Positions 30,240 through 56,712 of a stretch of DNA of 64,000 nucleotides are shown piece by piece; position 1 is the first letter of the stretch, and each line of letters opens with the position of its first letter. The notes beneath the pieces were generated by a model, which had not been told where the DNA came from, made no database searches, and worked only from the letters and a program-made list of their open reading frames with translations. A program made the translations under genes and the position numbers. The stretch lies in assembly GCF_004322755.1 (NCBI RefSeq), contig NZ_CP036401.1, positions 6,200,001 through 6,264,000 of the forward strand. Direction: 5' to 3'. Source of the stretch: Pseudoduganella albidiflava. GTDB taxonomy: Bacteria; Pseudomonadota; Gammaproteobacteria; Burkholderiales; Burkholderiaceae_D.

Positions 30240-30569
30240 ATGCAAGCACAACCAACGATGGGGCCGCCAGCCGCCAAACCCAGAAAACCCGGCCCCGGCT
30301 GGCGCTACCGCACCGGCGTCGCGGTGCGCGCGCTCGCGGCGATCCTCGGCGGCTATGCACTGTCCGCCGCATGGGCGGCGGCGCTGGCACTGACCCTGCC
30401 GACCGTGCGTGTGGAAGCCGCGCTGACGGCGACCATGACCGCGCTGGCGATCTACCCCTGCGCGGCGATGTGGTGCTTCGGCGCGCGCACGGCGCAGCGC
30501 GCCGTCACCGGCCTGGCGATCGCCGGCGTGGTGCCCGCCGCCATCCTGTTGCTGAAGGGGGCCGCATGA
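30240..30569 (+). CDS. DUF3649-type small membrane protein
   Basis: A 109-aa protein. After a 30-residue cytosolic Pro/Lys-rich start there are three membrane segments (VAVRALAAILGGYALSAAWA, TATMTALAIYPCAAMWCFGA, GLAIAGVVPAAILLL). Size and the WRYRTGVAVRALAAILGGY block match DUF3649 proteins, which are found with PepSY membrane proteins in iron-uptake loci. The ATG at 30240 is the first; its ribosome site is weak. It overlaps the PepSY gene by 4 bp. Confidence 0.75.
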   Translation: MQAQPTMGPPAAKPRKPGPGWRYRTGVAVRALAAILGGYALSAAWAAALALTLPTVRVEAALTATMTALAIYPCAAMWCFGARTAQRAVTGLAIAGVVPAAILLLKGAA

Positions 30570-38025: not shown

Positions 38026-38057
38026 CACCTCATTCATCACAACCACAAGAGTCCAAG

Positions 38058-40316
38058 ATGTCCGCCCCGTCCAAATCGCCGTTTCCCTTGAAACCCCTGG
38101 CCCTGCTGGTGCTGCATGCGCTCTCCGGCGCCGCTCTTGCCGCGCCGCTTCCCGCCGAACCGGAGCCCGTCCCCGACCCCGCGATCCGCCCCGAAGCGCC
38201 GATCGAGACTGTGTTTGTCCAGGGCCAGGTGCGCCAGGTGCAGAACGTCACCCGCAAGGACCTGCAGCAGGCCACGCCCGGCACCAGCCCCCTGAAGACG
38301 CTGGAAAAGCTGCCCGGCGTATCGTTCCAGTCGGCCGACCCGTTCGGCGCCTACGAATGGTCGACGCACATCTCCATCCGGGGCTTCGGCCAGAACCAGC
38401 TGGGCTTTACCCTGGACGGCATACCGCTGGGCGACATGAGCTACCGGAACCACAATGGCTTGCACGTCAGCCGGGCGATCTCGTCGGAAAACATCGGCAG
38501 CGTGACGGTATCGCAGGGCGCCGGCGCGCTGGGCACCGCATCGACCAGCAACCTGGGCGGCGCCGTGGCGTTCACCACGCGCGGCCCGCAGGATACCGCC
38601 GGCGTGCAGCTGGCCCAGACGATCGGCACCGAGAACACCTCGCGCACGTTCGTCCGCTACGATACTGGCCTGCTGCCGACCGGCACCAGGGCCTATGCAT
38701 CCGGCACGCGCCAGCGCGCCGACAAATGGAAGGGTGACGGCGGCCAGGACCAGGACCAGTTCAATGCGGCCGTCGAACAGGAGCTGGGCAAGCATGTGCT
38801 GGGCGCGTTCTTCAACTACTCCGAGCGCACCGAGGCCGACTACCAGGACCTGTCGTTCGATGCTGTGCGCCGCCTCGGATACGGCTGGGACAACTATGCG
38901 CCCGACTGGCAGCGAGCCGTGGATGCGGCGAACGGCGACTACACGGGCGGCGTGAACAATCTCGACGACGCCTACTACCTGGGCCGCGGCATCCGCCACG
39001 ACTGGCTGGCGGGCGCGAAACTGGAACTGAACCCGGTGGATGGCGTGCGCTGGGATACCACCGTGTATGGCCACCGCAACCGCGGCGAGAGCCACTGGTA
39101 CACGCCCTACACGCCCTCCTCCGCCACCGTGCCGATCTCGGTCCGCGCACAGGAATACGGTATCGAGCGCGCGGGCGTGGTCACCAGCCTCGCGTGGGAG
39201 ATCGGCAACCACACGGTCACCGCCGGTGCCTGGGGCGAGCGCAGCACGCACTCGTGGTCGCGCGCGTTCCACGCGGTGGCCGGGCCCGAGGATACCTCGC
39301 ACTTCCTCGACAATCCATTCTCCACCGTGATCGCGCAGCGCTTCACGACGAAGACGCGCCAGTTCCACGTGCAGGACAGCATCGCCCTGCTGCAGCACCG
39401 CCTGAAGCTGAATGCCGGGTTCAAGAGCACCAAGGTCACGATCGATGGTGACAATGATATCGGCGGCCGTGCCGCCGGCACGCTGGAAGCATCGAAGAAA
39501 TTCCTGCCGCAGGCCGGCCTGACGTTCGCCGTGACGCCGCAAACGGAACTGTTTACATCGTGGTCGAAGAACCTGAAGGCACATATCGCCGGCGCCGACG
39601 GCCCGTTCTCGCAGACGCAGGCGGCGTTCGACCTGTCGAAGCCGGCCCTGAAGCCGGAAACCTCGACCACGGTCGACCTGGGCGTGCGCGCAAGGAACGG
39701 CAACGTGCAGGGCTCGGTGGCGCTGTACGCCGCGGATTTCAGGAACCGGCAACTGACCGTGGCCACCTGCACCGGCATCGTCGGCTGCCCGACCACGCTG
39801 GCCAATGTGGGCAAGGTGGAAACCCGCGGCCTGGAAGCGGCGCTGGACTGGAAGCTGGCGCGAGGGGGGCGCTGGTTCAACTCCTTCACCTACAACCGCT
39901 CCGAGTACAAGGATGCGCCGGTGTACTACGAAGGGGCGGCCGCGATCGACGTCAACGGCAAGCGCGTGGTCGATGCGCCGCGCGTGCTGTTCAACACCGA
40001 GCTGTCGTTCGAGCACGCCGGCTGGTTCGCCCGCGTCGATACGAAATATACGGGAAAGCGGTACTACACCTACCTGAACGACAGCCCGGTGCCGTCGTAC
40101 TGGATCGCCAACGCGGTGGCCGGCTACAGGCTGGGCGCGGCCGGTCCGTTCAGGGAGGCGACGCTCCAGCTGAACGTGGCCAACCTGTTCGACAAGAAGT
40201 ACTTCGCCACGATCGGCACCAACGGCTTCGCCAGCGCCGATCCCGCCGGCACGTTCGCGACGATGCTGGCGGGCGCACCGCGCGCGGCATTCCTGTCGCT
40301 GAGCGGCAAACTGTAA
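38058..40316 (+). CDS. TonB-dependent outer-membrane receptor in the choline-sulfate operon
   Basis: A 752-aa outer-membrane receptor. A signal peptide (residues 1-29) is followed by a plug domain (ETVFVQGQVRQVQNVTRKDL, SIRGFGQNQLGFTLDGIPLG, GSVTVSQGAGALGTASTSNL) and a 22-strand barrel with the late VANLFDKKYFATIGTNGF; it ends LSLSGKL. The ATG at 38058 is used. It sits between choX and choV with gaps of 32 and 19 bp, so it is part of the operon. Such receptors energise uptake of scarce substrates; here the cargo is probably choline-O-sulfate or a choline-bearing compound. This is inference, as known choline-sulfate loci lack a receptor. Confidence 0.9.
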   Translation: MSAPSKSPFPLKPLALLVLHALSGAALAAPLPAEPEPVPDPAIRPEAPIETVFVQGQVRQVQNVTRKDLQQATPGTSPLKTLEKLPGVSFQSADPFGAYEWSTHISIRGFGQNQLGFTLDGIPLGDMSYRNHNGLHVSRAISSENIGSVTVSQGAGALGTASTSNLGGAVAFTTRGPQDTAGVQLAQTIGTENTSRTFVRYDTGLLPTGTRAYASGTRQRADKWKGDGGQDQDQFNAAVEQELGKHVLGAFFNYSERTEADYQDLSFDAVRRLGYGWDNYAPDWQRAVDAANGDYTGGVNNLDDAYYLGRGIRHDWLAGAKLELNPVDGVRWDTTVYGHRNRGESHWYTPYTPSSATVPISVRAQEYGIERAGVVTSLAWEIGNHTVTAGAWGERSTHSWSRAFHAVAGPEDTSHFLDNPFSTVIAQRFTTKTRQFHVQDSIALLQHRLKLNAGFKSTKVTIDGDNDIGGRAAGTLEASKKFLPQAGLTFAVTPQTELFTSWSKNLKAHIAGADGPFSQTQAAFDLSKPALKPETSTTVDLGVRARNGNVQGSVALYAADFRNRQLTVATCTGIVGCPTTLANVGKVETRGLEAALDWKLARGGRWFNSFTYNRSEYKDAPVYYEGAAAIDVNGKRVVDAPRVLFNTELSFEHAGWFARVDTKYTGKRYYTYLNDSPVPSYWIANAVAGYRLGAAGPFREATLQLNVANLFDKKYFATIGTNGFASADPAGTFATMLAGAPRAAFLSLSGKL

Positions 40317-42060: not shown

Positions 42061-42142
42061 GTTCAGTTTTTCTGAACTATGAAATTAATTGAACAGAACA
42101 GCATAGGTGTTCATAATCATATCTTGTTCGGGTTTACTGAAC
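42061..42142 (+). promoter_or_regulatory. paired 17-bp operators of the AbiE-like pair
   Basis: GTTCAGTTTTTCTGAAC at 42061-42077 and GTTCGGGTTTACTGAAC at 42126-42142 share length, end sequences and palindromic form. A third partial site (GTTCAGATATTTGCAAC) starts at 42044. They precede the antitoxin gene at 42154. AbiEi-type antitoxins repress their own promoter through inverted repeats. Confidence 0.65.
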
Positions 42143-42153
42143 GGAGTAAAAAA

Positions 42154-43179
42154 ATGAACCCAAAAGAATGGGAACGAACACTTGCCGTATGGCTACCAAA
42201 AGTCCTGGCCGCTTTGCGCAACTCTGCAGGTATCGACGGCCATGTCATGCCCAACTCGATGCTGTCAGAAGGAATGGTGGAACTGGCGATCAACGAAACG
42301 CTCCTCACCTACAGGTGCGAATTCAAGATGCGGATCTCCCACTTTGCAGTGCTCGCAGACATGAGGGCGCGTACCAATTCGGGCAACTCGGTTCTACTCA
42401 TTACACCGGCGCTAAGCCAGGAAATGGCGCTGCGCTGCCGCGCCGCAGGTATCCAGTTTCTCGATGCCGCTGGTAACGCATACCTGACAGACGGGCAATG
42501 CATGTTTATATTCATTGCCGGCTTAAAGACAGCTGCCGACGATGCGCCACTGGAAGCGGGTTCCCTTGCCACGCCGGCTGCCTTGCGGATGATTTTCGCT
42601 TTTCTCGCCAAACCCGCACTGATCAACGCGTCGTACCGCGAGATTTCGTGGGCGGCAAAAGTATCAACAGGCTCGATTGGCCAAGTGTTCAACTCGCTCG
42701 CCGCGCGGAATTTTCTTGCCACGACAAAGACTGGACGCCGCTTGAAGAACGAGAGGTTGCTGATCAGTGAATGGAGCGCAGGATACGCCAATCGGCTGAG
42801 GCCCAAACTGGAACGCCTGCGTTTCGCAGCAGACAACGTCGACCGCTTGTACCAATGGCTTCCGACGCAAGGCGTAGCTGCCTGGGGCGGCGAAATGGCT
42901 GCAGCAGTGCTAACAAAGCACCTGAAGCCTCAGCAATTTACTATCTATCTGGACATGGATGTTCCTGGAGCGCTGAATGAAATTGTCGGCGAGTTCCGGC
43001 TACGCAAGGATAACCAGGGTGCGATTGAAGTAGTACAGCCATTTTGGAAGATCGCCGAGTTGGAGGTGCAACAGGGCATCGCTCCCATTCCCCTGGTTTA
43101 CGCGGACCTGCTCATCAGCGGCGATCCACGCAATATCGAAGTCGCGTCCCATCTTTTGGACATAATGAACGATGCTTAG
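42154..43179 (+). CDS. AbiEi-like type IV antitoxin / transcriptional regulator
   Basis: A 341-aa protein with lower GC than its neighbours. Residues 165-235 look like a winged helix (INASYREISWAAKVSTGSIG, QVFNSLAARNFLATTKTGRR); the rest resembles the AbiEi family, type IV antitoxins that counter a nucleotidyltransferase without binding it and repress their own operon. GGAG at 42144 supports the ATG at 42154; an upstream ATG at 42079 lies between the operator copies and is less likely. It overlaps the next gene by 8 bp. Family assignment comes from the partner and the pattern; a search is needed to be firm. Confidence 0.75.
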   Translation: MNPKEWERTLAVWLPKVLAALRNSAGIDGHVMPNSMLSEGMVELAINETLLTYRCEFKMRISHFAVLADMRARTNSGNSVLLITPALSQEMALRCRAAGIQFLDAAGNAYLTDGQCMFIFIAGLKTAADDAPLEAGSLATPAALRMIFAFLAKPALINASYREISWAAKVSTGSIGQVFNSLAARNFLATTKTGRRLKNERLLISEWSAGYANRLRPKLERLRFAADNVDRLYQWLPTQGVAAWGGEMAAAVLTKHLKPQQFTIYLDMDVPGALNEIVGEFRLRKDNQGAIEVVQPFWKIAELEVQQGIAPIPLVYADLLISGDPRNIEVASHLLDIMNDA

Positions 43180-44020
43180 TATTCCGTCGGAGCGTCCGCT
43201 GTTGCCAGAGACGCTGGAAATCCTCCGTGCAGTTCAGCAGATCACTCGATCCCATGACATCGATCATTTCGTCATCGGTGCCACTGCGCGAGATATTCTG
43301 ATGCAGCACGTCTTCGGCATTGCCACTGGCCGTGCAACCCGCGACGTTGATTTCGCGATCGCTATCCGGGATTGGCAACAGTTCGGCATGATCCGGACAA
43401 AATTGATCGCGACCGGGCAGTTTCATGAAGCATCGCCCATCGCGCACAGGCTCTATTTCGAACCTGGCAAACACGGCGAAGCATATCCACTGGACCTCGT
43501 GCCTTTTGGCGCAGTGGAACATAAGCCGCATGAAATTGCATGGCCGCCCGACATGCACGTCGTGATGAACGTCGCAGGCTATGGTGAGGCGCTTCAAACC
43601 GCGCTGACAGTCGACGTCGGCGGATTCGACATACGCGTCGTCTCGCTTCCCGGGCTTGCCGCGCTCAAGTTGCTTGCATGGGCCGACAGGCACGATGAGC
43701 ACACAAAGGACGCACTGGACTTGCGGTTCTTGATGGGGAATTATCATCGGGCCGGGAACTTTGACAGACTGTACGACGAAGCAATGGATGTCATGGAAAA
43801 GACTGGCTATGACATCAGCCTGGCGGGGGCCGCTTTACTCGGCCTGGATACCCGCCGCATGCTGGCACCGGCGACATTGACAGCCATGCTTGCCATTCTC
43901 CACGCACCAAAGCTACGCGACAGGCTTCTCACGCACATGAGCGCGGCCATGCTCGATCATGATCAGTTGGCAGACGAGTTGCTTCAGCAATTCACTGACG
44001 GACTGATGACAGAAAAGTAG
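43172..44020 (+). CDS. AbiEii-like nucleotidyltransferase toxin
   Basis: A 282-aa nucleotidyltransferase of the AbiEii/AbiGii family. The active-site strand pattern is DHFVIGATARDILMQHV followed by ATRDVDFAIAI, giving the two catalytic Asp residues of DVD. Later blocks are VVSLPGLAALKLLAWADRHD and TKDALDLRFLM, also family hallmarks. Such toxins transfer nucleotides to tRNA acceptor stems or other targets and cause growth arrest, often as anti-phage defence. The 8-bp overlap with the antitoxin gene and lower GC indicate an acquired two-gene cassette. Confidence 0.82.
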   Translation: MLSIPSERPLLPETLEILRAVQQITRSHDIDHFVIGATARDILMQHVFGIATGRATRDVDFAIAIRDWQQFGMIRTKLIATGQFHEASPIAHRLYFEPGKHGEAYPLDLVPFGAVEHKPHEIAWPPDMHVVMNVAGYGEALQTALTVDVGGFDIRVVSLPGLAALKLLAWADRHDEHTKDALDLRFLMGNYHRAGNFDRLYDEAMDVMEKTGYDISLAGAALLGLDTRRMLAPATLTAMLAILHAPKLRDRLLTHMSAAMLDHDQLADELLQQFTDGLMTEK

Positions 44021-44102: not shown

Positions 44103-44402
44103 TCAGGAATGAACGCCAGCCAGTTCGGCCAGCAGCGCGAACGGGTAGATGCCCCGCGCGTGCCCGTCGCTGAAGCCGAGGTTCAGCGCGTTGCTGCCCG
44201 CCGGTTCGATGACGGTCAGCCGCACCTCCGCCGATGCTTGGACGGTACCGCCGGCACGCCGCAGCGCGCGGCATCCGGAGCAGGGGCACGCGGCACGCAG
44301 TTCGGCGTGAGTGAAGGCGTGCTCGCTGCCGCCAGCCCAGCGCACGGCAAGGATGCCGGCGCGCGAGCGGTTTTCGATGGCTTCGATGGTGCCGACGCTC
44401 AT
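44103..44402 (-). CDS. DUF971 domain protein
   Basis: A 99-aa protein that is entirely one DUF971 domain: VRWAGGSEHAFTHAELRAAC, PCSGCRALRRAGG, IEPAGSNALNLGFSDGHARG and IYPFALLAEL. DUF971 also forms the N-terminal part of gamma-butyrobetaine hydroxylase and fuses to Mrp/ApbC iron-sulfur carriers; C39, C41 and C44 with a His resemble its zinc site. It overlaps the HEAT-repeat gene by 4 bp and is the last gene of the flavoprotein operon. It may help mature the iron-sulfur partner, but this is inference. Confidence 0.85.
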   Translation of the reverse strand: MSVGTIEAIENRSRAGILAVRWAGGSEHAFTHAELRAACPCSGCRALRRAGGTVQASAEVRLTVIEPAGSNALNLGFSDGHARGIYPFALLAELAGVHS

Positions 44403-45355
44403 GCCGCGGCCTCCGTCTGCTGCAGCGCCAGCCGGGCCGACTTGCGCACTTCGGGGTCCGGGTCGTTGGCCGCCTCGCGCAGTGCCGGCAGGGCCAGCGG
44501 CGAGGCGATCTCGCCCAGCGCCAGCGCGGCTTCCTTGCGCAGGTTGCTGATGGTGTGGGCCAGCGCGGCGATCAGCGCGGGCAGCGCATCGGCGCTGCGC
44601 AGCCGGCCCAGGCTGCGGGCGGCGCGCAGGCGTACCTGCCAGTATGGATCGTCCAGCGCGGCGATCAGGGCCGCGGCGGCGCCCTGCAGGCGCAGCTTGC
44701 CCAGCGTGGCGGCCGCTTCCTCGCGCACCTGCCACGCGGTGTCGCCCAGGGCGGCCAGCAGCGCCGGGAGCACGGCATCGTCGGTGGCGGCGCCCAGCGC
44801 GCCCACGGCGGCGCGGCGCACGTCGGCATGCGGATCGCCGGTCGCCAGTGCCGTCAGCGCCGGCAAGGCGTCGAGGTGCTTCAGCCAGCCCAGCACGGAC
44901 ACGGCTTCGCGCCGCACCAGCGGATCGGTATCGTCCAGCGCGGCCAGTGCGGGCGCCGCCGTTTCCGGCGCGCGCAGTTCGCGCACGGCACGCAGCGCCG
45001 CGGCGCGCACGAAACTGTCACCGCTGGCGAGGTAAGGCAACACCGCGATGGCCGACGAGGCCACCTTCAGTTGCGCCAGGCTTTGCGCGGCGGCGGCGCG
45101 CACGTCTTCGTCGTCATCGGCCAGCAGGCGCGCCACGCCGGCCACGCTGTCCGGCGTCTCGAACGCTTCCAGCGCCCGCGCGGCCTCGGCGCGCACGTCG
45201 GCCGAGGCGTCGCCCAATGCCGCGACCAGCAGCGGCAGGGGCTCGTCGCCATCGAAGTCCGCCAGCGCGAGTACCGCGATGCGGCGCACCGTGGCATCCG
45301 GCTCGCGCAGCCGTGCGGCGATGTCCGCCAGTTCCGGGTCGTCGTAATCGGTCAT
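44399..45355 (-). CDS. HEAT-repeat protein
   Basis: A 318-aa protein built of about ten HEAT / PBS-lyase-type repeats of 31 residues (for example DVRAEAARALEAFETPDSVA, LVRREAVSVLGWLKHLDALP, QVRLRAARSLGRLRSADALP). There is no catalytic motif. HEAT proteins act as scaffolds or chaperones, as CpcE/F lyases and NifX-linked proteins do. It lies 7 bp after the ATPase gene and overlaps DUF971. An ATG 7 codons upstream (45376) is possible. Conserved position in the flavoprotein operon suggests a role in cofactor insertion or complex assembly. Confidence 0.88.
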   Translation of the reverse strand: MTDYDDPELADIAARLREPDATVRRIAVLALADFDGDEPLPLLVAALGDASADVRAEAARALEAFETPDSVAGVARLLADDDEDVRAAAAQSLAQLKVASSAIAVLPYLASGDSFVRAAALRAVRELRAPETAAPALAALDDTDPLVRREAVSVLGWLKHLDALPALTALATGDPHADVRRAAVGALGAATDDAVLPALLAALGDTAWQVREEAAATLGKLRLQGAAAALIAALDDPYWQVRLRAARSLGRLRSADALPALIAALAHTISNLRKEAALALGEIASPLALPALREAANDPDPEVRKSARLALQQTEAAA

Positions 45356-45362
45356 TGTCTTT

Positions 45363-46238
45363 TTATCCTTGTGCATGTTGAGGTGCCGATCCGGCCGGGC
45401 CCAGGGGGCTCAGGCGGTCGAGCGGCACGATGTTCGCGTGCGGGTGCAGCAGCGCCAGGCAATGGCGCTTGTATTGGGTGAATTCCGGCGACGTCACCAG
45501 GTCCGCGCTGCGCGGCCGGGGGAAGTCGAGCCGGATCTCGTCGATGATGCGGCCCGGGCGGGGGCTCATCACGAGGATGCGGTCGGCCAGGAACAGCGCT
45601 TCGTCGATATCGTGCGTGATGAAGACGATGGTCGTCTTCACGCGGCTCCACACGTCCAGCAGCAGTTCCTGCATCTTCAGGCGGGTCTGCGCGTCGAGGG
45701 CGCCGAACGGTTCGTCCATCAGCATCACGCGCGGGCCGTTGATCAATACCCGGGCGATCTCCACGCGCTGCTGCATGCCACCGGAGAGCTGCACCGGGTA
45801 GCGGTCCTCGAAACCCTCCAGGCCGACCAGTTTCAACATGTCCCGCGCCCGCTGATGGCGTTCGGCGCGGCCGACGCCCTTCATCTTCAGGCCGAAGGCC
45901 ACGTTGTCCAGTACCTTCTTCCACGGGAACAGCGTGTGGTGCTGGAATACCAGGCCGCGGTCCGGGTGCGGCCCGGACACCGTGTCGCCATCGACGCGGA
46001 TGGTGCCCCCGCTCGGCTGCCAGTGCCCGGCCAGCCCGCCCAGCAGGGTGGACTTGCCGCAGCCCGACGGCCCCAGCACGCAGACGAATTCGCCGGGGCG
46101 GATGTGCAGCGACACATCCTGCACCGCATCGAATGCCTGCTTGCCCTGCCCCAGGCGGATGGTGAGATGGTCGATGTCGATGCCGCCCAGCGCACCGTCT
46201 TCCAATGCGCGTTCTTCAAGTGCTGAAATACGGTTCAT
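45363..46238 (-). CDS. ABC transporter ATPase, nitrate/sulfonate/taurine type
   Basis: A 291-aa ATPase. Walker A is GPSGCGKST (residues 57-65), Q-loop VFQHHTLFPWKKVLDN, signature LSGGMQQRVEIARVLI, Walker B VMLMDEPFGALDAQ and H-loop VFITHDIDEAL. The LFPWKKVLDNVAFGLKMKGV block is typical of SsuB/TauB/NrtD. It overlaps the permease by 4 bp. Part of an importer whose substrate is not determined, in a unit with a flavoprotein and a ferredoxin. Confidence 0.9.
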   Translation of the reverse strand: MNRISALEERALEDGALGGIDIDHLTIRLGQGKQAFDAVQDVSLHIRPGEFVCVLGPSGCGKSTLLGGLAGHWQPSGGTIRVDGDTVSGPHPDRGLVFQHHTLFPWKKVLDNVAFGLKMKGVGRAERHQRARDMLKLVGLEGFEDRYPVQLSGGMQQRVEIARVLINGPRVMLMDEPFGALDAQTRLKMQELLLDVWSRVKTTIVFITHDIDEALFLADRILVMSPRPGRIIDEIRLDFPRPRSADLVTSPEFTQYKRHCLALLHPHANIVPLDRLSPLGPAGSAPQHAQG

Positions 46239-47029
46239 GATTTCGTCCTCGTCATCAGGTACCAGGGCAGGAACAGGTTGCCGATCTTTTTCACCAGCAC
46301 GCTGCTGCCCATGCCGATGGCGCCGATGAACAGCATGCCCACCACGATCTCGGGATAGTTCTGGATCGTGTACGACGCCCACGTGTAGTAGCCGATGCCG
46401 AACTGGCCGGAGATCATTTCCGCCGTCACCAGGCAGAACCACGCGGTGCCCATGCCGATCGCCAGCCCGGTCACGATACTGGGCGCGGCCGCCGGCAGGA
46501 TCACTTCGGCGAAGATGCTCCACCGCCCGGCCCCCAGGCTGCGGGCCGAGGCGACCAGGCGCTGGTCGACGCCTTCCACGCCGTGGACGGTGTTCAGCAG
46601 GATCGGGAACAGTGCGCCGATGAAGGTGATGAACACCATCGATGCCTCCGACGACGGGAACATCAGGATCGCCAGCGGGATCCACGCCACCGCGGGAATC
46701 GGCCGCAGCACTTCCAGTGGCGGCATCAGCACGTCCTCGACCCAGCGCGAGCGGCCGACGACGAGGCCGAGCAGGATGCCGGTCACCGCGGCGCCGGCAA
46801 AACCGGCAAACACCCGGTACACGCTGGCCGATACGTGCTGCGACAGCTTCGGCGATTCGACCAGGTCCTTCGCCGCCGCCACCACGTCGACGGGCGACGG
46901 CACGTTCTGGAACGTGACCAGGCCGAAGTCGGCGTGGCGCGACGCGGCCCATTGCCAGGCTGCCACGCAGGCGGCGATCGACAACAGCCCGACGATCGCG
47001 CGCAGGATTTTGGATGCGGTCGTGTTCAC
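46235..47029 (-). CDS. ABC transporter permease, nitrate/sulfonate/taurine type
   Basis: A 264-aa inner-membrane permease with six segments. The EAA loop is VEGVDQRLVASARSLGAGRW, and the blocks PLEVLRPIPAVAWIPLAILM and MGTAWFCLVTAEMISGQFGI fit the SsuC/TauC family. It overlaps the ATPase gene by 4 bp and follows the binding-protein gene by 12 bp. Confidence 0.9.
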   Translation of the reverse strand: MNTTASKILRAIVGLLSIAACVAAWQWAASRHADFGLVTFQNVPSPVDVVAAAKDLVESPKLSQHVSASVYRVFAGFAGAAVTGILLGLVVGRSRWVEDVLMPPLEVLRPIPAVAWIPLAILMFPSSEASMVFITFIGALFPILLNTVHGVEGVDQRLVASARSLGAGRWSIFAEVILPAAAPSIVTGLAIGMGTAWFCLVTAEMISGQFGIGYYTWASYTIQNYPEIVVGMLFIGAIGMGSSVLVKKIGNLFLPWYLMTRTKS

Positions 47030-47041
47030 GATGGCGTCCGC

Positions 47042-48460
47042 TCAGATAGTCGCGTTGACCGTATCGGCCTTGAGCCTGTCGTAATCCACGACCTGCCCGC
47101 CGTTCTTCTTCGCCCACGCGTCCGCATCGGCCTTCAGCAGGAAGGCTCCCACCTCCTTGCCCTTGACGACGAACCACGCATCGGCCGCCAGCAGCTTCAG
47201 GCCCGTATCCTGGTCATGCGCATACACGGTGCGCACCTTCTTGCCGCCCTGTTCCAGCTTGCGCAGCTCGGCGAACGCGGTGCCGGCGCTTGCATAGTGG
47301 CGCACCAGCGGCTCGCCCTGCACCCAGATCTGCGTGAGCTGGCGGAAGTCCGCAATCGGCTTGCCCGTCACCGCATCCTTGGCGGACAGCGGCAGCTTGG
47401 CGTAGTTCTTCAGCGCCTTGTCGTAGTCGAGCTTCGCCTGCTTGAAGGCGGTGCGCAGGTAGGAATCGTCGATGAAGCTGTTCACGTCGATGTCGCTTTC
47501 GGTGCGCTTCAGCAGGCGCAGCGTCTCGATCGACGTCGCCACCGCCTGCCGGTATTCCGGCTTCCACGTGAAATCGCGTGTCTGCAATCCGACCGGCCCA
47601 TGGAACAGGTAGTTGATCTCGGCCTCGATGCCGGTCACCTTGGCGATCAGCTCACTGTATTTTTCCGGTTCGGCGGCGATCAGCCGGTCCGCTTCCAGCG
47701 CGGCGCGCAGGTAGGCCACCACGATCTCCGGGTATTTCTTCGCATAGGCCGAATCCACCAGGCTGCCGTGGAGCGTGGGCGACTTGGCTTGCGAACCGTC
47801 GAAGATCTTGCGGGCGTAGCCGCGGTGCGGGAACAGTTCGGCGAACGGCACGAAGTCGGCATGCGCTTCGATCTTGTTGCTCTGCAGGGCCGAGCCGGCG
47901 ATTTCCGGCGCCTGCGTGGTGATGTTCACGTCCTTTTCCGGATCCCAGCCCTGTGCCTTCACGGCGCGCAGCAGCATCCCGTGGGCCGTCGATGCGAACG
48001 GCACCGAGATCGTCTTGCCCTTCAGCTCGGCCAGCGATTGCACGGCCGAGCCTTTCGGCACGACGATGCCGTTGCCCGAGCCCAGCGTGCTGCCCGACAG
48101 CACGGTGATGAAGATGCTTTTCTTGCCGGCCTTCTGGTGCGCGGCGCCATTGAAGGAGCCGGGGAAGTCGGCCATCGAGCCGAGGTCCAGCTTGCCGGCC
48201 ACCATCTCGTTCGTCAGCGGTGCGCCGGAGGTGAAGTTCTTCCATACGATGTCGTATTTCGCATCCTTGTACTTGCCATCCTTCGGCAGGTACTTCTGCA
48301 GCAGGTTCAGTTCGCGGATCAGCAGGCCGCCCGTGGCGCAGTTGATCGTGGTGTCCTGCGTGCCGATGGCAATGCGGATCGTTTCGGCACTGGCGCCGCT
48401 GAAAGCGAGCGACAGGGACAGGGCAAGGGGAAGACCGATCAGGTGTCTGGACAGGTTCAT
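47042..48460 (-). CDS. ABC substrate-binding protein with NosL-like C-terminal extension
   Basis: A 472-aa periplasmic protein, about 150 residues longer than SsuA or TauA. A 25-residue signal peptide ends ASA. Residues 28-330 are the binding fold (TTINCATGGLLIRELNLLQK, TLGSGNGIVVPKGSAVQSLA). Residues 400-470 (VRTVYAHDQDTGLKLLAADA, WFVVKGKEVGAFLLKADADA, KKNGGQVVDYDRL) resemble NosL, a copper-binding accessory of nitrous oxide reductase. GGAG precedes the ATG at 48460. The fusion suggests delivery of a metal-linked or sulfur ligand, but the cargo is unknown. Confidence 0.82.
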   Translation of the reverse strand: MNLSRHLIGLPLALSLSLAFSGASAETIRIAIGTQDTTINCATGGLLIRELNLLQKYLPKDGKYKDAKYDIVWKNFTSGAPLTNEMVAGKLDLGSMADFPGSFNGAAHQKAGKKSIFITVLSGSTLGSGNGIVVPKGSAVQSLAELKGKTISVPFASTAHGMLLRAVKAQGWDPEKDVNITTQAPEIAGSALQSNKIEAHADFVPFAELFPHRGYARKIFDGSQAKSPTLHGSLVDSAYAKKYPEIVVAYLRAALEADRLIAAEPEKYSELIAKVTGIEAEINYLFHGPVGLQTRDFTWKPEYRQAVATSIETLRLLKRTESDIDVNSFIDDSYLRTAFKQAKLDYDKALKNYAKLPLSAKDAVTGKPIADFRQLTQIWVQGEPLVRHYASAGTAFAELRKLEQGGKKVRTVYAHDQDTGLKLLAADAWFVVKGKEVGAFLLKADADAWAKKNGGQVVDYDRLKADTVNATI

Positions 48461-48478
48461 TTTATTGTTCTCCAAGGA

Positions 48479-48712
48479 TCATCGCAGCAGATAGGGAATG
48501 TCGACGTGCACGGCGCCGGTGGGGCAATCCTTCTCGCACGGCATGCAGTACCAGCATTCGTCGAATTTCATGTACGCCGTGCCTTTCGACAGGTCGATGG
48601 CGAGCACGTCGAGCGGGCACACGTCCACGCAGACGGTGCAGCCCTTGTGGGCGATGCACTTGTCGGCGTCCACGGTGACGGGCACGCTGGTGATGTTGAT
48701 CGTGGTGGGCAT
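48479..48712 (-). CDS. ferredoxin with two 4Fe-4S clusters (AprB-like)
   Basis: A 77-aa protein. The first cluster motif is C19-x5-C25-x2-C28-x3-C32-P, the second C53-x2-C56-x2-C59-x3-C63-P. The arrangement CTVCVDVCPLDVLAID and CWYCMPCEKDCPTGAV recalls the beta subunit of adenylylsulfate reductase (AprB), but without its C-terminal tail. It lies 10 bp after the flavoprotein gene and should carry electrons to or from its FAD. The ATG at 48712 is the only sensible start. Confidence 0.92.
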   Translation of the reverse strand: MPTTINITSVPVTVDADKCIAHKGCTVCVDVCPLDVLAIDLSKGTAYMKFDECWYCMPCEKDCPTGAVHVDIPYLLR

Positions 48713-48722
48713 TGCGTCTCCT

Positions 48723-50447
48723 TCAGGCGGCCAGCGGTTGGGCGACCCGCAAGCGTTGATAAGCGGTTTTTTCCTGGTCTTCCAGCGGCACGATGTACGG
48801 TTCGATGGCGCGCTTGAAGCACACCATCTCGCCGTCCTGCTTCTGCAGCTGCACGTGCACGAACCAGTCCTGGTCGTTGCGCTGCGGGTAGTCCACGCGG
48901 TTGTGGTACAGGCCCCAGCGGCTTTCGGTGCGGTACAGCGAGGCGCGCGCCGCCATTTCCGCGCAATCGCGGATCGCATGCACCTCCATGGCGCGCATCA
49001 GTTCATGGGGATTGCGCGCCTGGATGCGGTCGAGGTCTTGCCGGATCATGTCGAAGCGCTGCAAGCCGATCTCCATCTTCTTCGTGACCTTCGGCGGCTG
49101 AAGGTAGTCGTTGACCATGCGCCGCAGCTTGTACTCCACCTGGTTCGGCGGCAGGCCATCCTCGCGGTGCAGCGGCGCCCAGACACGCTGGCGTTCCGCC
49201 TCCACCTGCGCGGCATCGACGGCCGGCAACTCGTGCGCGGCGCAGTACGCGGCGGCACTCTCGCCGGCCAGCTTGCCGTACACGAAGGCACCCAGCATGT
49301 AGTTGTGCGGCACGCAGGCCAGGTCGCCGGCGGCATGCAGGCCCGCGACCGTGGTGCGGGCGTGTTCGTCGACCCACACGCCGGAGGCCGAGTGGCCGCT
49401 GCACAGGCCGATCTCGGAAATGTGCATCTCCACCATCTGCTGGCGGTAATCGGTGCCGCGGCCTTCATGGAAGCGGCCGCGGCTCGGGCGTTCGTTGGTG
49501 TGCAGGATCGTCTCGATGGTCTGGATGGTTTCCTCGGCCAGGTGGTTCAGCTTGAGGAACACCGGCCCGTTGCCGCCCTGCAGTTCGTTATAGAACTCCT
49601 GCATCATCTGGCCGCTCCAGTAATCGCACTCGATGAAGCGCTCTTCCTTCGCGTTGGTGGTATGGCCGCCGAACGGACCGGTGACGTAGGCGCACGACGG
49701 GCCGTTGTAATCCTTGATCAGAGGATTGATCTGGAAGCACTCGATGCCCGACAGTTCGGCGCCGGCGTGGTACGCCATGCTGTAGCCGTCGCCCGCATTT
49801 GTCGGGTTTTCATAGGTGCCGAACAGGTAACCCGATGCCGGCAACCCCAGCCTGCCCGCCGCGCCCGTGGCCAGCACGACGGACTTCGCGCGGATCACGT
49901 GGAAGTCCGCCGTGCGGCAGTCGAACGCCATGGCGCCGGCGATGCTGCCGTCTTCCGCCAGCAGCAGGCGCGTGGCCACCAGCCGGTTGGTGATTTCCAC
50001 GCGGGTGCGCTTCAGGCGGCGGTACAGCACCTTCTTGATGTCGTGCCCTTCCGGCATCGGCAGCACGTAGGTGCCCATGTGGTGCACCTTGCGCATCGCA
50101 TAGTCGCCCGTTTCATCCTTCTCGAAACGCACGCCCCAGCGGTCCAGTTCCTCGATCATGGCGTAGCTGTTCCGCGCGTAGGCCATCACGGTTTTCTGGT
50201 TGACGATGCCGTCGTTGGCGACCGTGATCTCTTTCACGTACTGCTCGGGCGTGGCGAAGCCCGGCACGACGGCGTTGTTCAGGCCATCCATGCCCATCGA
50301 GATGGCACCGCTGCGCTTGACGTTGGCCTTTTCCAGCAGCAGCACACGTAATGCGGGATTGGCTTCCTTGGCCTTCACGGCCGCCATCGGTCCGGCGGTA
50401 CCGCCGCCGATGACGAGCACGTCGACGGTTTGTTCGATTGTCTCCAT
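48723..50447 (-). CDS. FAD-dependent oxidoreductase, fumarate reductase / AprA-like
   Basis: A 574-aa flavoprotein. The dinucleotide motif VLVIGGGTAGPMAAVKAKEA is at residues 9-28, and SVVLATGAAGRLGLPASGYL and GLHAAGDLACVPHNYMLGAF complete the FAD site. NVKRSGAISMGMDGLNNAVV and the C-terminal TESRWGLYHNRVDYPQRNDQ are typical of the AprA/SdhA/FrdA superfamily. Paired with an AprB-like ferredoxin, it should catalyse a two-electron step on an imported substrate, perhaps a sulfur compound. It is not a clear AprA. The ATG at 50447 is set by family alignment; GTR gene ends 2 bp upstream. Confidence 0.88.
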   Translation of the reverse strand: METIEQTVDVLVIGGGTAGPMAAVKAKEANPALRVLLLEKANVKRSGAISMGMDGLNNAVVPGFATPEQYVKEITVANDGIVNQKTVMAYARNSYAMIEELDRWGVRFEKDETGDYAMRKVHHMGTYVLPMPEGHDIKKVLYRRLKRTRVEITNRLVATRLLLAEDGSIAGAMAFDCRTADFHVIRAKSVVLATGAAGRLGLPASGYLFGTYENPTNAGDGYSMAYHAGAELSGIECFQINPLIKDYNGPSCAYVTGPFGGHTTNAKEERFIECDYWSGQMMQEFYNELQGGNGPVFLKLNHLAEETIQTIETILHTNERPSRGRFHEGRGTDYRQQMVEMHISEIGLCSGHSASGVWVDEHARTTVAGLHAAGDLACVPHNYMLGAFVYGKLAGESAAAYCAAHELPAVDAAQVEAERQRVWAPLHREDGLPPNQVEYKLRRMVNDYLQPPKVTKKMEIGLQRFDMIRQDLDRIQARNPHELMRAMEVHAIRDCAEMAARASLYRTESRWGLYHNRVDYPQRNDQDWFVHVQLQKQDGEMVCFKRAIEPYIVPLEDQEKTAYQRLRVAQPLAA

Positions 50448-50449
50448 AT

Positions 50450-51214
50450 TCAATTCCCAGGGTTGGTTGTCGTGGTGCGGCGCGGCAGGCGCAGCGTGTA
50501 CTGGAACGCGTCGCCGCGCACGTACAGGTATTCGAAATCGAGAGGCTCGCCGTCGATCGTCCATGTCAGGCGCTCGATACGCAGCAGCGCGGTGCCAGGC
50601 GCCAGGTCCAGCGCCTTCGCCAGCGCGGTGTCGGCCGAGACGGCGCCGATCTGGATGTCGGCATGGGACAGCGACAGGCCGTAGTCCGTTTCCAGGATCA
50701 GGAAGATGTCGCGTTCGGCCAGGTTCTCGCCGCGCAGCCGGTCGCCGATGCGGGTCGGCAGGTAGGTGATTTCATACGACACCGGCGCATCGTCGACATG
50801 GCGCACGCGCCGGATTTCCGTGACCCGGGCGCTGGCGGGCAGGTGCAGCTGGCTGGCCACGTGGGCTTCGGCCGGCACCGTCAGGTGGCTGAGCACGCGG
50901 TTGATGACGGTATGGCCGCGGCGCGACATGGCTTCGCCGAAGCCTTCCAGCCGCGCCAGGTCCTGGGTCGGCTTGGGCTGGGCCACGAACGTCCCCTTGC
51001 CGGGCACCTTGACGATCAGGCCTTCGTGCTGCAGGTCGGCCAGCGCCTGGCGCACCGTGATGCGGCTGACGGAGAAGATCGCGCTGATCTCGCTTTCGGC
51101 GGGCAGGCGCGCTTCCGGTTCGTAGGTGCCGTCGACGATCCGCTCGCGCAGGCGTTCGCGCACTTGCGAGTACAGCGGTGCCGCGGAGGATTCGAGTGCC
51201 CGGAAAAGAGTCAT
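50450..51214 (-). CDS. GntR/HutC family regulator with UTRA domain
   Basis: A 254-aa regulator. Residues 12-80 are the GntR winged helix (LYSQVRERLRERIVDGTYEP, ITVRQALADLQHEGLIVKVP). Residues 95-245 are the UTRA ligand domain of the HutC group (RRGHTVINRVLSHLTVPAEA, VSYEITYLPTRIGDRL). AAGGA supports the ATG at 51214. The gene is first in the flavoprotein operon (2 bp to the next), so it likely controls it and senses the substrate or product. A 14-bp palindrome sits just upstream. Confidence 0.9.
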   Translation of the reverse strand: MTLFRALESSAAPLYSQVRERLRERIVDGTYEPEARLPAESEISAIFSVSRITVRQALADLQHEGLIVKVPGKGTFVAQPKPTQDLARLEGFGEAMSRRGHTVINRVLSHLTVPAEAHVASQLHLPASARVTEIRRVRHVDDAPVSYEITYLPTRIGDRLRGENLAERDIFLILETDYGLSLSHADIQIGAVSADTALAKALDLAPGTALLRIERLTWTIDGEPLDFEYLYVRGDAFQYTLRLPRRTTTTNPGN

Positions 51215-51233
51215 GTGCGGTGTCCTTGCTTGG

Positions 51234-51247
51234 CCTGTCATGACAGG
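51234..51247 (-). promoter_or_regulatory. palindromic operator candidate for the GntR regulator
   Basis: CCTGTCATGACAGG is a perfect 14-bp palindrome, 20 bp upstream of the GntR start at 51214. It covers the alternative upstream ATG, which favours the shorter start. It may be an autoregulatory site. Confidence 0.5.
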
Positions 51248-51382
51248 TGATGACGATGCAAGGATGGTAACGACGGCTCCCGGGCGGGGGAACGAATCGT
51301 TTCGGTTTTGCTAATGCGGCAAGCGCCTCAGTCGATTGGCGTATATCGATATATGAACGCGCGCCACCGGATCTGCTCAAAT

Positions 51383-51440: not shown

Positions 51441-51719
51441 ATGGCTGCTACCACCATGATTCATGTCCGTGTGGACGAGAACATCAAGAAGCAAGCGGCG
51501 GAAACGCTGTCCGCCATGGGGCTGACCATTTCGGACGCCGTACGTGTGTTCCTCACCCGTGTGGTTGCGGATGAAGAGTTGCCGTTTGCAATCAAAGCGC
51601 CGAATGCGGCCAGCCGGGCGGCCATGGCTGAAGCGAGCGAGCTCGCCGGAAACCGCCGCGCCCGCTTCGCTACGGCGGAGGAACTGATCAATGACCTCGA
51701 AAAAGCCGGCGGCAAGTAA
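51441..51719 (+). CDS. dinJ: DinJ/RelB family antitoxin
   Basis: A 92-aa antitoxin. Residues 5-45 are a ribbon-helix-helix (MIHVRVDENIKKQAAETLSA, MGLTISDAVRVFLTRVV) of the RelB/DinJ family; the C-terminal part (ATAEELINDLEKAG) would wrap the toxin. GAGGAG precedes the ATG at 51441. It overlaps the toxin gene by 29 bp and should repress the pair through the upstream dyad. Confidence 0.9.
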   Translation: MAATTMIHVRVDENIKKQAAETLSAMGLTISDAVRVFLTRVVADEELPFAIKAPNAASRAAMAEASELAGNRRARFATAEELINDLEKAGGK

Positions 51720-52020
51720 ACGGACGCCCCTTCCTCGTGCCAGCGATTACACGAAGCAGTTCCTGAAGGACTGGCAGCGCCTGTCCCATTCGGGCCGGTA
51801 CGACATGAACCGCCTGAAGGAAGCAATGGCGCTGCTCATTGCCAACGACGGCCCACTACCGCCCGAATGGCTCGATCATGCACTGTCAGGTGATTGGCTT
51901 GGCCATCGGGAGTGCCACGTCGGTGGCGACTTCCTGCTCATTTACCTTCTCGACGACAGCGGCAAGCACGGGCAGGTCATCTTCGTGCGCAGTGGCACGC
52001 ATTCCGATCTATTTTCCTGA
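51691..52020 (+). CDS. yafQ: YafQ family mRNA interferase toxin
   Basis: A 109-aa RelE-superfamily ribonuclease that cuts mRNA on the ribosome. The YafQ pattern is intact: YTKQFLKDWQRLSHSGRYDM, L-DHALSGDWLGHRECHVGGDF and the C-terminal GTHSDLF with the catalytic histidine. The N-terminus is longer than usual by about 15 residues (KKPAASKRTPLPRAS). The start overlaps dinJ by 29 bp, which couples their translation. Confidence 0.9.
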   Translation: MTSKKPAASKRTPLPRASDYTKQFLKDWQRLSHSGRYDMNRLKEAMALLIANDGPLPPEWLDHALSGDWLGHRECHVGGDFLLIYLLDDSGKHGQVIFVRSGTHSDLFS

Positions 52021-53567: not shown

Positions 53568-54818
53568 TCAGACGACGCGCTGTTCGTGGAGCGCCGCGAT
53601 CTGATTCTGGCTGTAGCCGAGCGACTCGAGGATCTCGTCGGTATGTTCACCCAGCAGTGGCGAGCCCTTGATCTCCACCTTCAGGTCCGAGAACTTGATC
53701 GGGCTGCCCACGGTCAGGTACTTGCCGCGCTCCTTGTGGTCCACCTCGGCGATGGTGCCGCTGGCGCGCAGCGACGGATCGTTGGCCAGCTCCTTCATCG
53801 ACAGCACCGGCGAGCACGGAATGTCGAACTTGCGCAGCACGTCCACCGCCTCGAACTTGGTCTTGTCCTTCAGCCATTCCTCGATGGTACCGAAGATGTC
53901 GAAGATCTTGTCCTGGCGCGCCTGCGCCGTCATGTAGGCGGGATCGTCGATCCACTCTTCCTTGCCGATCGCGCGGCAGATCGGCGCCCAGGCGTGTCCC
54001 TGGATCGTGAAGTAGATATACGCGTTGGGATCGGTTTCCCAGCCCTTGCACTTCAGCACCCAGCCCGGCTGGCCGCCGCCGCCGGCGTTGCCGCCACGCG
54101 GCACCACGTCGGAGAAGGTACCGTGCGGGTACTGCGGATACTCTTCCAGGTAGCCCACGCGGTCCAGGCGCTGCTGGTCGCGCAGCTTCACGCGGCACAG
54201 GTTCAGCACGCTGTCCTGCATCGATACCGCCACCTTCTGGCCGCGGCCCGTGACATCGCGCGAACGCAGCGCCGTCAGGATGCCGATGGCCAGGTGCATG
54301 CCGGTATTGCTGTCGCCCAGCGCGGCGGCGCTGACGGTCGGCGGGCCGTCGTCGAAACCGGTGGTGGACGCCGCGCCGCCGGCGCACTGCGCCACGTTCT
54401 CGTACACCTTCAGGTCCTCGTAATGGTGGCCGTCGCTGAAGCCTTTCACCGACGCCACGATCATGCCGGGGTTCAGCTCGCGGATATGCTCCCATGTGAA
54501 ACCCATCCGGTCCAGCGCGCCGGGACCGAAGTTCTCCACCAGCACGTCGGATTCCTTGATCAGCTTCGTCAGGATCTCCTTGCCCTCGGCGGTCTTGGTG
54601 TCGAGCGTCAGCGAGCGCTTGTTACTGTTCAACATGGTGAAGTACAGCGCATCGACGCCGGGAATGTCGCGCAGCTGCGAACGGGTAACGTCGCCCGCGC
54701 CCGGCCGCTCCACCTTGATCACGTCGGCGCCGAACCAGGCCAGCATCTGGGTGCAGGCGGGGCCGGCCTGGACGTGGGTGAAGTCGATGATCTTGATGCC
54801 TTCCAGTGGCTTGCTCAT
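53568..54818 (-). CDS. frc: formyl-CoA:oxalate CoA-transferase
   Basis: A 416-aa class III CoA-transferase that moves CoA from formyl-CoA to oxalate. The N-terminus [20 protein letters not shown] has the family Gln; the catalytic Asp is in [20 protein letters not shown] (about residue 169). The glycine-rich loop [20 protein letters not shown], which folds over the active site, is intact. Slightly shorter than the Oxalobacter enzyme (428 aa). It follows oxc by about 95 bp and ends at a clear terminator. Confidence 0.94.
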
Positions 54819-54913
54819 GGTGCAGTCTCCTTGTTGAGGTCTTTGTTCAGTCGTAGCGGGGCCCCGCGCCGGCATTGGTGATGCCGGCGTCGTGGAAAAT
54901 CACAGGTGTGGAT

Positions 54914-56620
54914 TTACTTTTTCGCGGCGCTTTGCGGATTCAGGTTCGTCAGGCGCCCGCTTTCGGTGCCGGCCGTTTCATCGATGACGGCGTTGATCAG
55001 CGCAGGCTTGCCGGCGGCGATCGCCTCCGAAAGTGCCCGCGCCAGTTCTTCCGGCGTGGTGGCGTGGTAGCCGATGCCGCCGAACGCCTCGATCATCTTG
55101 TCGTAGCGGGCATTCTTGACGAATACGGTGGGCGCCACGTCCTTGCCGCCGGTCGGGTTCACGTCCGTACCGCGGTACACGCCGTTGTTGTTGAACACGA
55201 TGGTGGTGACGGGCAGCTCGTAGCGGCAGATCGTCTCCAGCTCCATGCCGGAGAAGCCGAAGGCGCTGTCGCCTTCCACCGCCACCACCGGCTTGCCGCT
55301 GGTGACCGCCGCGCCGATCGCGAAGCCCATGCCGATGCCCATGATGCCCCAGGTGCCCGAATCGAAACGCTTGCGCGGCTGGTACTGGTCGATGATGCTG
55401 CGCGCGAAGTCGAGCGTGTTGGCGCCTTCGTTGACCAGGTTGATGTCCGGGTACTCCTTCAGCACGTCGCGGATCGAACGCAGCGCGCTGTGGAAATTCA
55501 TCGGTACCGGGTTCCTGTCCAGCAGCGCGGCCATCTTCGCCGTGTTCTGTTCCTTGCGCTGGGCGATCGCGCCGAGCCATTCTTCATCCGGCTTGTCGAT
55601 GCCGGCGCCATCGAGCCCCGCCAGCAGCGCGCCCACGCAGGAACCGATGTCGCCGACCAGCGGCGCGGCGATCGCCACGTTGCTGTCCATTTCCGTCGGC
55701 GCGATATCGATCTGCACGAACTGCTTCGGCTTGCCCCAGGTCTTGCCCTTGCCGTGCGCCAGCAGCCAGTTCAGGCGCGCGCCGACCAGCACCACCACAT
55801 CGGCCTCGGCCAGCACGAACGAGCGCGCCGCGGACGCCGACTGCGCATGCGTGTCGGGCAGCAGGCCCTTGGCCATCGACATCGGCAGGTAGGGAATGCC
55901 GGTGCGTTCGACGAAGGCGCGAATGTCGGCATCGGCCTGCGCATAGGCGGCCCCCTTGCCGAGCAGGATCAGCGGCTTCTTCGCGCCCTTCAGCAGTGCC
56001 AGCGCGCGCTCCACCGACTCGGGCGCCGGCAGCTGCCGTGGCGCGGCATCGATCACCTTGACCAGCGAGCGCTGGGCGTGGCCGGCCTCGATCGTCTGCG
56101 CCAGCAGTTGCGCCGGCAGGTCGAGGTACACGCCGCCGGGGCGGCCGGAGACGGCGGCGCGGATGGCCCGCGCGATGCCGATGCCGATGTCTTCGGCCTT
56201 GAGCACGCGGAACGCTGCCTTGCAGTGCGGGCGCGCCACGTTCAGCTGGTCCATCTCCTCGTAGTCGCCCTGCTGCAGGTCGACGATTTCCCGTTCGCTG
56301 GAACCGGAGATCAGGATCATCGGGAAGCAGTTGGTGGTGGCGTTGGCCAACGCGGTCAGCCCGTTCAGGAAGCCCGGTGCCGACACGGTCAGGCAGATGC
56401 CCGGCTTCTTCGTCATGTAGCCGGCGATGGCGGCCGCGTTGCCCGCGTTCTGCTCGTGCCGGAAGCCGATGAAGCGCATGCCTTCGGCCTGCGCCAGGCG
56501 GGCGAGATCGGTGATCGGTATCCCGACCAGGCCGAAGATCGTATCGATGTCGTTGTGTTTCAGCGCATCGATCACCAGGTGGAAGCCGTCGGTGACTTCT
56601 ACCGATACATTGTGGGTCAT
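54914..56620 (-). CDS. oxc: oxalyl-CoA decarboxylase
   Basis: A 568-aa thiamine diphosphate enzyme, the same length as the Oxalobacter formigenes protein. It turns oxalyl-CoA into formyl-CoA and CO2. The ThDP glutamate is in [20 protein letters not shown] (about residue 56); the ThDP/Mg motif is [20 protein letters not shown]...[30 protein letters not shown] and [16 protein letters not shown] are oxalyl-CoA specific. GGAG before the ATG at 56620 supports it over 56632. First gene of oxc-frc, divergent from the Crp/Fnr gene. Confidence 0.96.
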
Positions 56621-56712
56621 GGTTGTCTCCATTTATTGTCGGGGTGCCCGTCGGTTCAGGCGACCTGGCCAGCCGATTCGCCCTGGAACCATCATAGCCA
56701 GCGGCTCTGATT

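Follow-up and report, generated by a model that had tools for sequence, protein, structure and literature searches.

The window analysed here, 64,000 nucleotides of the soil bacterium Pseudoduganella albidiflava (positions 6200001-6264000 of a one-contig 7.44-Mb genome), contains an eight-gene operon that we propose, with a probability of roughly 0.45, to encode the import of a sulfonate-like compound and a ferredoxin-driven, reductive flavo-iron-sulfur step on it, which would give sulfite or a reduced sulfur product. Within this proposal, which reads function from sequence, the sulfur role is firmer than the reductive direction. The operon is real. Its eight leftward genes all lie at 44103-51241, where a preliminary description made from the DNA letters had placed them, and with the gene starts adopted here (the binding protein and HEAT genes also have TTG and upstream ATG alternatives) neighbouring genes overlap by at most 4 bp or lie at most 18 bp apart. 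The features are as follows.

51233..51248 (no strand): 16-bp palindrome GCCTGTCATGACAGGT, predicted operator, over the GntR start codon
50450..51241 (-): GntR/UTRA transcriptional regulator, 263 aa (PF07702 126 bits, PF00392 78 bits)
48723..50447 (-): flavin adenine dinucleotide (FAD) flavoprotein of the AprA/fumarate reductase superfamily, 574 aa (NF006131, PRK08275, 1100.8 bits)
48479..48712 (-): two-[4Fe-4S] ferredoxin subunit with AprB-like CWxC, 77 aa (Fer4_7; 3gyx_B and 1jnr_B among its matches)
47042..48460 (-): periplasmic binding protein, 472 aa, with an SsuA/TauA-like domain (about 25-350) and a C-terminal tail
46235..47029 (-): ATP-binding cassette (ABC) permease, 264 aa (PF00528; best NCBIfam matches ntrB and SsuC, both below cut-off)
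45363..46238 (-): ABC ATPase, 291 aa (PF00005; best NCBIfam match TauB-like PRK11248, 273.9 bits, below the cut-off of 357)
44399..45355 (-): HEAT-repeat protein, 318 aa (PF13646 187.5 bits)
44103..44402 (-): free DUF971 protein, 99 aa (PF06155 67.5 bits, above the gathering score of 22.8)

From the regulator onward, the successive junctions are gaps of 2 bp (GntR/flavoprotein), 10 bp (flavoprotein/ferredoxin), 18 bp (ferredoxin/binding protein) and 12 bp (binding protein/permease), a 4-bp overlap (permease/ATPase), a 7-bp gap (ATPase/HEAT) and a second 4-bp overlap (HEAT/DUF971). The domains found (UTRA and GntR, FAD_binding_2 and Succ_DH_flav_C, Fer4_7, NMT1-type binding protein, BPD permease, ABC ATPase, HEAT and PF06155, which now carries the name GBBH-like_N) bear out the order, spacing and assignments given earlier, except for a NosL tail on the binding protein.

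The Gene Set Is Kept Together in Diverse Bacteria

We compared 96 related loci, each of at least 9 kb and with the flavoprotein. They comprise 79 of 80 genome contigs (L031 was too short), taken as the best 80 among 592 confirmed loci, so that close relatives are over-represented; 8 of 53 plasmid records, hand-picked for diversity; and 9 stretches (L112-L120) from the 14 carriers among 199 Pseudomonadota genomes. Phyla other than Pseudomonadota were sampled through the plasmid records. The flavoprotein is accompanied by the ferredoxin in 96 of 96 loci, the HEAT protein in 94 (the two exceptions, L061 and L082, both reach a contig end), the binding protein and the permease in 88 each, the ATPase in 85, the GntR regulator in 82 and the DUF971 protein in 68. 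No binding protein or ATPase match lies within 9.8 kb in seven loci (L033, L038, L067, L068, L082, L089 and L118); L082 is truncated by the end of its contig, and in L089 ABC genes lie slightly further out. Gene order varies, the HEAT gene standing either directly after the ferredoxin gene or after an intervening importer. Since these neighbours are kept in the 96 loci, and since HEAT and DUF971 probes reached threshold in none of 80 control stretches (19.7 kb each, from four carrier genomes), the arrangement is not due to chance. The non-conservation that the preliminary description had named as counting against it thus did not materialise. The closest related locus among the best 80 of 592 is that of Massilia kyonggiensis, with 92% identity in the flavoprotein.

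The distribution is conserved yet patchy. The flavoprotein family scores above cut-off in 14 of the 199 Pseudomonadota genomes and in 11 of 116 genomes of the organism's own family (its own genome counted in both), and, within the class to which carrier G149 belongs, in 3 of 289 genomes, G149 counted. The flavoprotein-ferredoxin-HEAT core also occurs on plasmid-labelled records from cyanobacteria, actinobacteria, a rhizobium, Methylocystis, Acinetobacter and Acidithiobacillus, and the whole looks like a transferable accessory operon.

Neighbouring Genes Point to Sulfur and to Electron Supply

In two metagenome-assembled genomes (MAGs) of Methylococcales (L028 and L029), the flavoprotein-ferredoxin-HEAT triad closes a same-strand run of SsuE-SsuA-SsuA-SsuD-SsuC-SsuB-DszC-like-amidohydrolase genes, where DszC-like stands for DszC/SfnB-like. 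The SsuD of L028 scores 626 bits, above its cut-off of 510, and CysT follows there. In a betaproteobacterial MAG (L030), the triad follows SsuE-SsuA-SsuD-SsuC-SsuB. Overall, sulfur-type neighbours occur in 23 of the 96 loci, against 4 of the 80 controls (Fisher p 3e-4). By number of loci these are a sulfate-binding protein (7), SsuD (6), a family-2A encapsulin with cysteine-desulfurase cargo (5), a CysE-like protein (5), SsuE (4), YeiH (4), a peroxiredoxin that we take to be LsfA-like (3), TauE (2), a DszC-like protein (2) and CysT (2). The encapsulin shell, its cargo and serine acetyltransferase-like genes lie near the operon in L017, L030, L050, L067 and L068, and it is possible that they link sulfur storage with the operon system.

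Genes for electron donors form a second group: FNR, Nfn-like or FdxA genes are found in 20 of the 96 loci and in 1 of the 80 controls. The Nfn-like protein, with matches in 10 loci, is a single chain of 1160-1260 aa in its nine members, which resembles the alpha subunit of NfnI (E down to 1e-13) and weakly its beta subunit (E about 1e-4, one chain), and ends in an invariant C-x5-C-x2-C-x18-C motif. Its N-terminal ~290 residues are without a Pfam match. An example is L023:15839-19423; eight others are similar, one of them on L084, and the records are often of sulfur-oxidiser type.

Taken together, the neighbours, where informative, point to sulfur starvation and to electron supply from ferredoxin and NAD(P)H. 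The preliminary description had proposed import of a small substrate and its oxidation or reduction by a soluble two-electron flavo-iron-sulfur enzyme; that proposal stands as such, and the neighbours sharpen it to sulfur and to reduction. Several points call for caution. The probes were chosen after the same loci had been viewed, and several loci are close relatives; the names YeiH, SsuE, DszC-like and FNR rest on scores below curated cut-offs; and 73 of the 96 loci are without a sulfur-type neighbour.

The Importer Resembles Sulfonate and Taurine Systems

The binding protein has a Sec-type signal sequence, judged by eye, and four sequence matches in the PDB, all of them taurine- or sulfonate-binding proteins, although one carries the label nitrate transport protein. 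In the predicted model of its main domain (mean predicted local distance difference test score, pLDDT, 82), the fold is that of sulfonate-binding proteins, with TauA and SsuA as the best Foldseek matches; by VIA-align, a CmpC domain is tied with the top and NrtA is close. The protein scores 106.7 bits against TIGR01728 (SsuA/TauA binding proteins), below the cut-off of 163.5. A sulfonate/taurine type is thus supported by both sequence and fold, in keeping with the SsuABC/TauABC importers cited in the preliminary description. The copper role suggested by a NosL tail fell away: PF05573 gives 21.6 bits against a gathering score of 24, the window protein has neither Cys nor Met in this tail (residues 356-472), and across 18 aligned binding proteins the tail has not a single Cys, Met or His that half of them share.

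The best placed of the alternatives, although unlikely, is a substrate of another class than the organosulfur compounds: a nitrate-like anion, an amide or a thiamine-type precursor. The permease scores best against ntrB; CmpA/CmpC and NrtA rank near SsuA by fold, with Thi5-type proteins next; amidase genes lie near L008, L085 and L090; and the many loci that have no sulfur neighbour would fit such a substrate. Against this stand the excess of sulfur-type neighbours over the controls, the position of the triad inside ssu gene runs and the four PDB matches to taurine- or sulfonate-binding proteins.

Direction of the Reaction

The electron-donor neighbours suggest a supply of low-potential reduced ferredoxin by the host and hence, probably, a reductive reaction. 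The opposite is slightly less plausible than a non-sulfur substrate: the flavoprotein would dehydrogenate either the compound taken up or a sulfur intermediate, and the electrons would pass via ferredoxin to NAD(P)+. Flavoproteins of the fumarate reductase superfamily run both ways, and FNR and Nfn are reversible. An oxidative role is disfavoured by the loss, in all 107 aligned family sequences, of the six SdhA/FrdA residues discussed below, and by the electron-transfer genes in 20 of the 96 loci, though these do not fix the direction.

The Flavoprotein Has Lost Some Active-Site Residues of Its Known Relatives

The flavoprotein belongs to NF006131 (cut-off 587 bits), a model named merely fumarate reductase/succinate dehydrogenase flavoprotein. 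Its best solved structure by sequence is 8a8o (E 1.4e-68), the FAD/[4Fe-4S] 3'-phosphoadenosine 5'-phosphosulfate (PAPS) reductase of Methanothermococcus thermolithotrophicus (MtPAPSR), which also tops the fold list, in keeping with the AprAB-like architecture proposed earlier. Against TIGR02061 (AprA) it scores 182.2 bits, far below the cut-off of 641.75. In a tree of 29 family representatives, four AprA and three SdhA sequences and MtPAPSR, the family forms one group (98/97), separate from AprA with MtPAPSR (100/100) and from SdhA (100/100), although AprA is represented by just four rows, and MtPAPSR has a long branch and an unlike composition. The preliminary description had allowed that the protein might fall within a characterised family of known substrate, an outcome contrary to its reading; by this tree, it lies inside none of AprA, MtPAPSR and SdhA.

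For the active site, we aligned 107 family sequences and mapped AprA positions through an AprA row (L107), with residue numbers and roles that we take to be Arg265 as catalytic and Asn74 and His398 as near FAD. The equivalents of Asn74 and His398 are invariant in 107 of 107 rows. The equivalent of Arg265, an Arg in four of four AprA rows, is Leu in all 107, at position 243 of the window protein; Trp234 is replaced by Tyr and Gly274 by Cys, again in every row, and Gln145 by His in 103 rows and by Arg in the other 4. MtPAPSR carries a PAPS loop at residues 104-123, in which Ser122, Lys120 and Arg121 are named (PMC10322725). The window flavoprotein has Val121-His122-His123 where MtPAPSR has Lys120-Arg121-Ser122, and so differs in these loop residues; across the family, 103 rows have His at the third position (Ser122) and the remaining 4 have Arg.

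Membership of the APS (adenosine 5'-phosphosulfate)/PAPS reductases is set aside by the Arg265 change, the AprA score and the tree, and we keep it as an improbable rival: the enzyme would serve assimilation as a member of the AprAB/MtPAPSR kind, either reducing APS or PAPS or oxidising sulfite to APS. In its favour are the nearest solved structures (MtPAPSR, first in the fold list, and APS reductases), the AprB-like CWxC ferredoxin in 96 of 96 loci, the kept Asn74 and His398 equivalents and the name APS reductase that PMC12375680 gives to an Acidithiobacillus caldus plasmid module. It has to contend with the universal Arg265-to-Leu and Trp234-to-Tyr changes, the different PAPS-loop residues, the low AprA score and the position of the family outside AprA and MtPAPSR in the tree. 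Moreover, the genome already has two tandem PF01507 proteins, judged by size to be CysH and CysD, and an SsuD elsewhere, which means that sulfate assimilation need not depend on the operon as a replacement; no match to a CysH probe occurs in the 96 loci.

That the enzyme is truly a soluble succinate dehydrogenase or fumarate reductase, the reading suggested by the NF006131 name and the FAD_binding_2 and Succ_DH_flav_C domains, is highly improbable and can be dismissed, because the equivalents of H242, E255, R286, H354, R399 and the FAD-linking His (presumably so numbered in Escherichia coli SdhA/FrdA) are absent from 107 of 107 rows and present in three of three SdhA rows and in L134, another protein of this genome, and because the sdhA_frdA_Gneg score is 169 against a cut-off of 567. 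Having lost these residues, and with Leu for Arg265, the family belongs neither to the succinate dehydrogenases and fumarate reductases nor to the ordinary APS/PAPS reductases. We infer a new substrate pocket, with electrons arriving at the FAD along an AprB-like wire.

Ferredoxin, HEAT and DUF971 Partners

In 96 of 96 loci the ferredoxin retains its two [4Fe-4S] motifs, and in the second of them the first Cys is followed by a Trp, as it is in the AprB chain 3gyx_B. In Tsukamurella, the flavoprotein and HEAT protein are one protein of 893 aa (NF010374 1568 bits, cut-off 1196). The HEAT half (656-897) of this fused family is the best NCBIfam match of the window HEAT protein (89.3 bits), ahead of the generic HEAT families NblB (76.5 bits) and CpcE (60.3 bits), and the separate HEAT proteins of L112 and L028 behave in the same way. 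The fusion makes HEAT likelier to be a structural partner of the flavoprotein, most likely its true role, than the assembly factor suggested in the preliminary description. The same suggestion for DUF971 fared better. Mrp-type proteins have a known role in iron-sulfur loading, and two cyanobacterial loci with no DUF971 match carry Mrp/NBP35 instead; from this replacement, it is plausible that DUF971 is an iron-sulfur loading helper.

A Predicted Operator

The palindrome over the GntR start is predicted to be the operator of a self-regulated operon. In the 7.44-Mb genome it is the sole place within one mismatch of ACYTGTYATRACARGT. A reversed control pattern has 2 matches per strand, so this rarity is no more than chance, and the argument is the position over the GntR start. 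Upstream of the flavoprotein, the palindrome occurs with at most one mismatch in 64 of 95 loci and in none of 1120 control pieces, a contrast partly built in because the consensus was derived from the same loci. It was not seen in the alphaproteobacterial, actinobacterial and A. caldus loci checked.

Flanking Genes

Directly downstream of the operon end lie an AbiEi antitoxin-like gene (PF09952) and, next to it, an AbiEii toxin-like gene (PF08843) (42079-44020, +). On the other side, RelB antitoxin and YafQ toxin genes (51441-52020, +) diverge from the GntR gene, and the operon is thus flanked at both ends by genes of toxin-antitoxin type. Just upstream (53568-56632, -) are a formyl-CoA transferase (TIGR03253, 730.8 bits) and a thiamine pyrophosphate enzyme, from its position probably oxalyl-CoA decarboxylase; a link of oxalate to the operon was rejected, as probes for both enzymes stayed below 300 bits in the loci checked. 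A PepSY-associated transmembrane protein and a TonB-dependent receptor are encoded at 30371-32197 and 38022-40316 (+). A phage origin was likewise rejected: PHROGs gave no match for HEAT or DUF971, and for the ferredoxin one weak match, of unknown function.

Proposed Function

We propose that the ABC importer takes in a small sulfonate-like organosulfur compound, on which a soluble cytoplasmic complex of the flavoprotein, the two-cluster ferredoxin subunit and a HEAT scaffold would act. Depending on the host, low-potential electrons would come from NAD(P)H via FNR, FdxA or the Nfn-like enzyme and cross the two [4Fe-4S] clusters to FAD, which would attack or reduce the sulfur group, and sulfite would probably be released for ordinary assimilation. 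DUF971, or Mrp/NBP35, may aid cluster loading, while the GntR/UTRA protein would bind the palindrome that covers the start of its own gene and keep the operon repressed until it meets a ligand, which is probably the substrate or a compound derived from it.

A bolder and more doubtful form of this proposal is oxygen-independent, ferredoxin-driven desulfonation, in which an AprA-fold enzyme with a rebuilt pocket and a HEAT partner would reductively cleave an S-C, S-N or S-O bond of an imported sulfo compound in aerobes, giving them an alternative to SsuD and TauD, which are oxygenases. Plasmids and operon transfer would have carried the system between proteobacteria, cyanobacteria and actinobacteria. 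Should the sulfur reading be right, aerobic bacteria would have a reductive, ferredoxin-fed route to the sulfur of sulfonate-like compounds beside their oxygen-dependent enzymes, and genome-based prediction of sulfonate use would change. A family labelled as succinate dehydrogenase/fumarate reductase is, by its residues, neither enzyme, and not an ordinary APS reductase either.

The preliminary description knew of no named pathway with this gene set. That stands insofar as no functional study of the operon was among the open-access papers listed, and its novelty is slightly reduced by a 2025 report of A. caldus plasmids with a ferredoxin/APS reductase/GntR module and a NirT/TauT sulfonate transporter, which also predicts two operons to serve organosulfonate uptake and assimilation (PMC12375680). 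In the A. caldus plasmid pTcM1 (L084), we find GntR-flavoprotein-ferredoxin-HEAT. The gene set is common to many unrelated bacteria, with a substrate class that we can only infer.

Comparison with Known Systems

Matching these A. caldus genes and predicted operons to the modules listed in PMC12375680 is our own reading of a figure legend; that report names the enzyme APS reductase and, in the parts concerned, gives no test, HEAT partner or active-site analysis.

Among characterised enzymes, MtPAPSR is the closest, with an FAD alpha subunit, a small two-cluster ferredoxin subunit, the Asn74 and His398 equivalents and the best sequence and fold match. Identity is however 30%, the window protein lacks the catalytic Arg and has Val-His-His for Lys120-Arg121-Ser122, and the window system adds a HEAT partner and an importer. 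AprAB belongs to the same superfamily, and the window ferredoxin shares with AprB the Trp adjoining a cluster Cys; it has 77 aa against 132 positions in TIGR02060, and in the flavoprotein Arg265 and Trp234 are exchanged for Leu and Tyr and the Gln145 and Gly274 positions are altered. PRK08275/PRK13800 (NF006131/NF010374) include the window protein, which exceeds the NF006131 cut-off, and the HEAT-fused form, NF010374; the family is, however, named just fumarate reductase/succinate dehydrogenase flavoprotein, and one model name occurs in a fungal paper. Finally, SsuABC/TauABC with SsuD/SsuE share the fold of the binding protein and the ABC arrangement, and the triad stands in the same gene run in three loci. 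The window binding protein differs in its extra C-terminal tail and its score below the family cut-off, and the flavo-iron-sulfur set occupies the place of SsuD or TauD.

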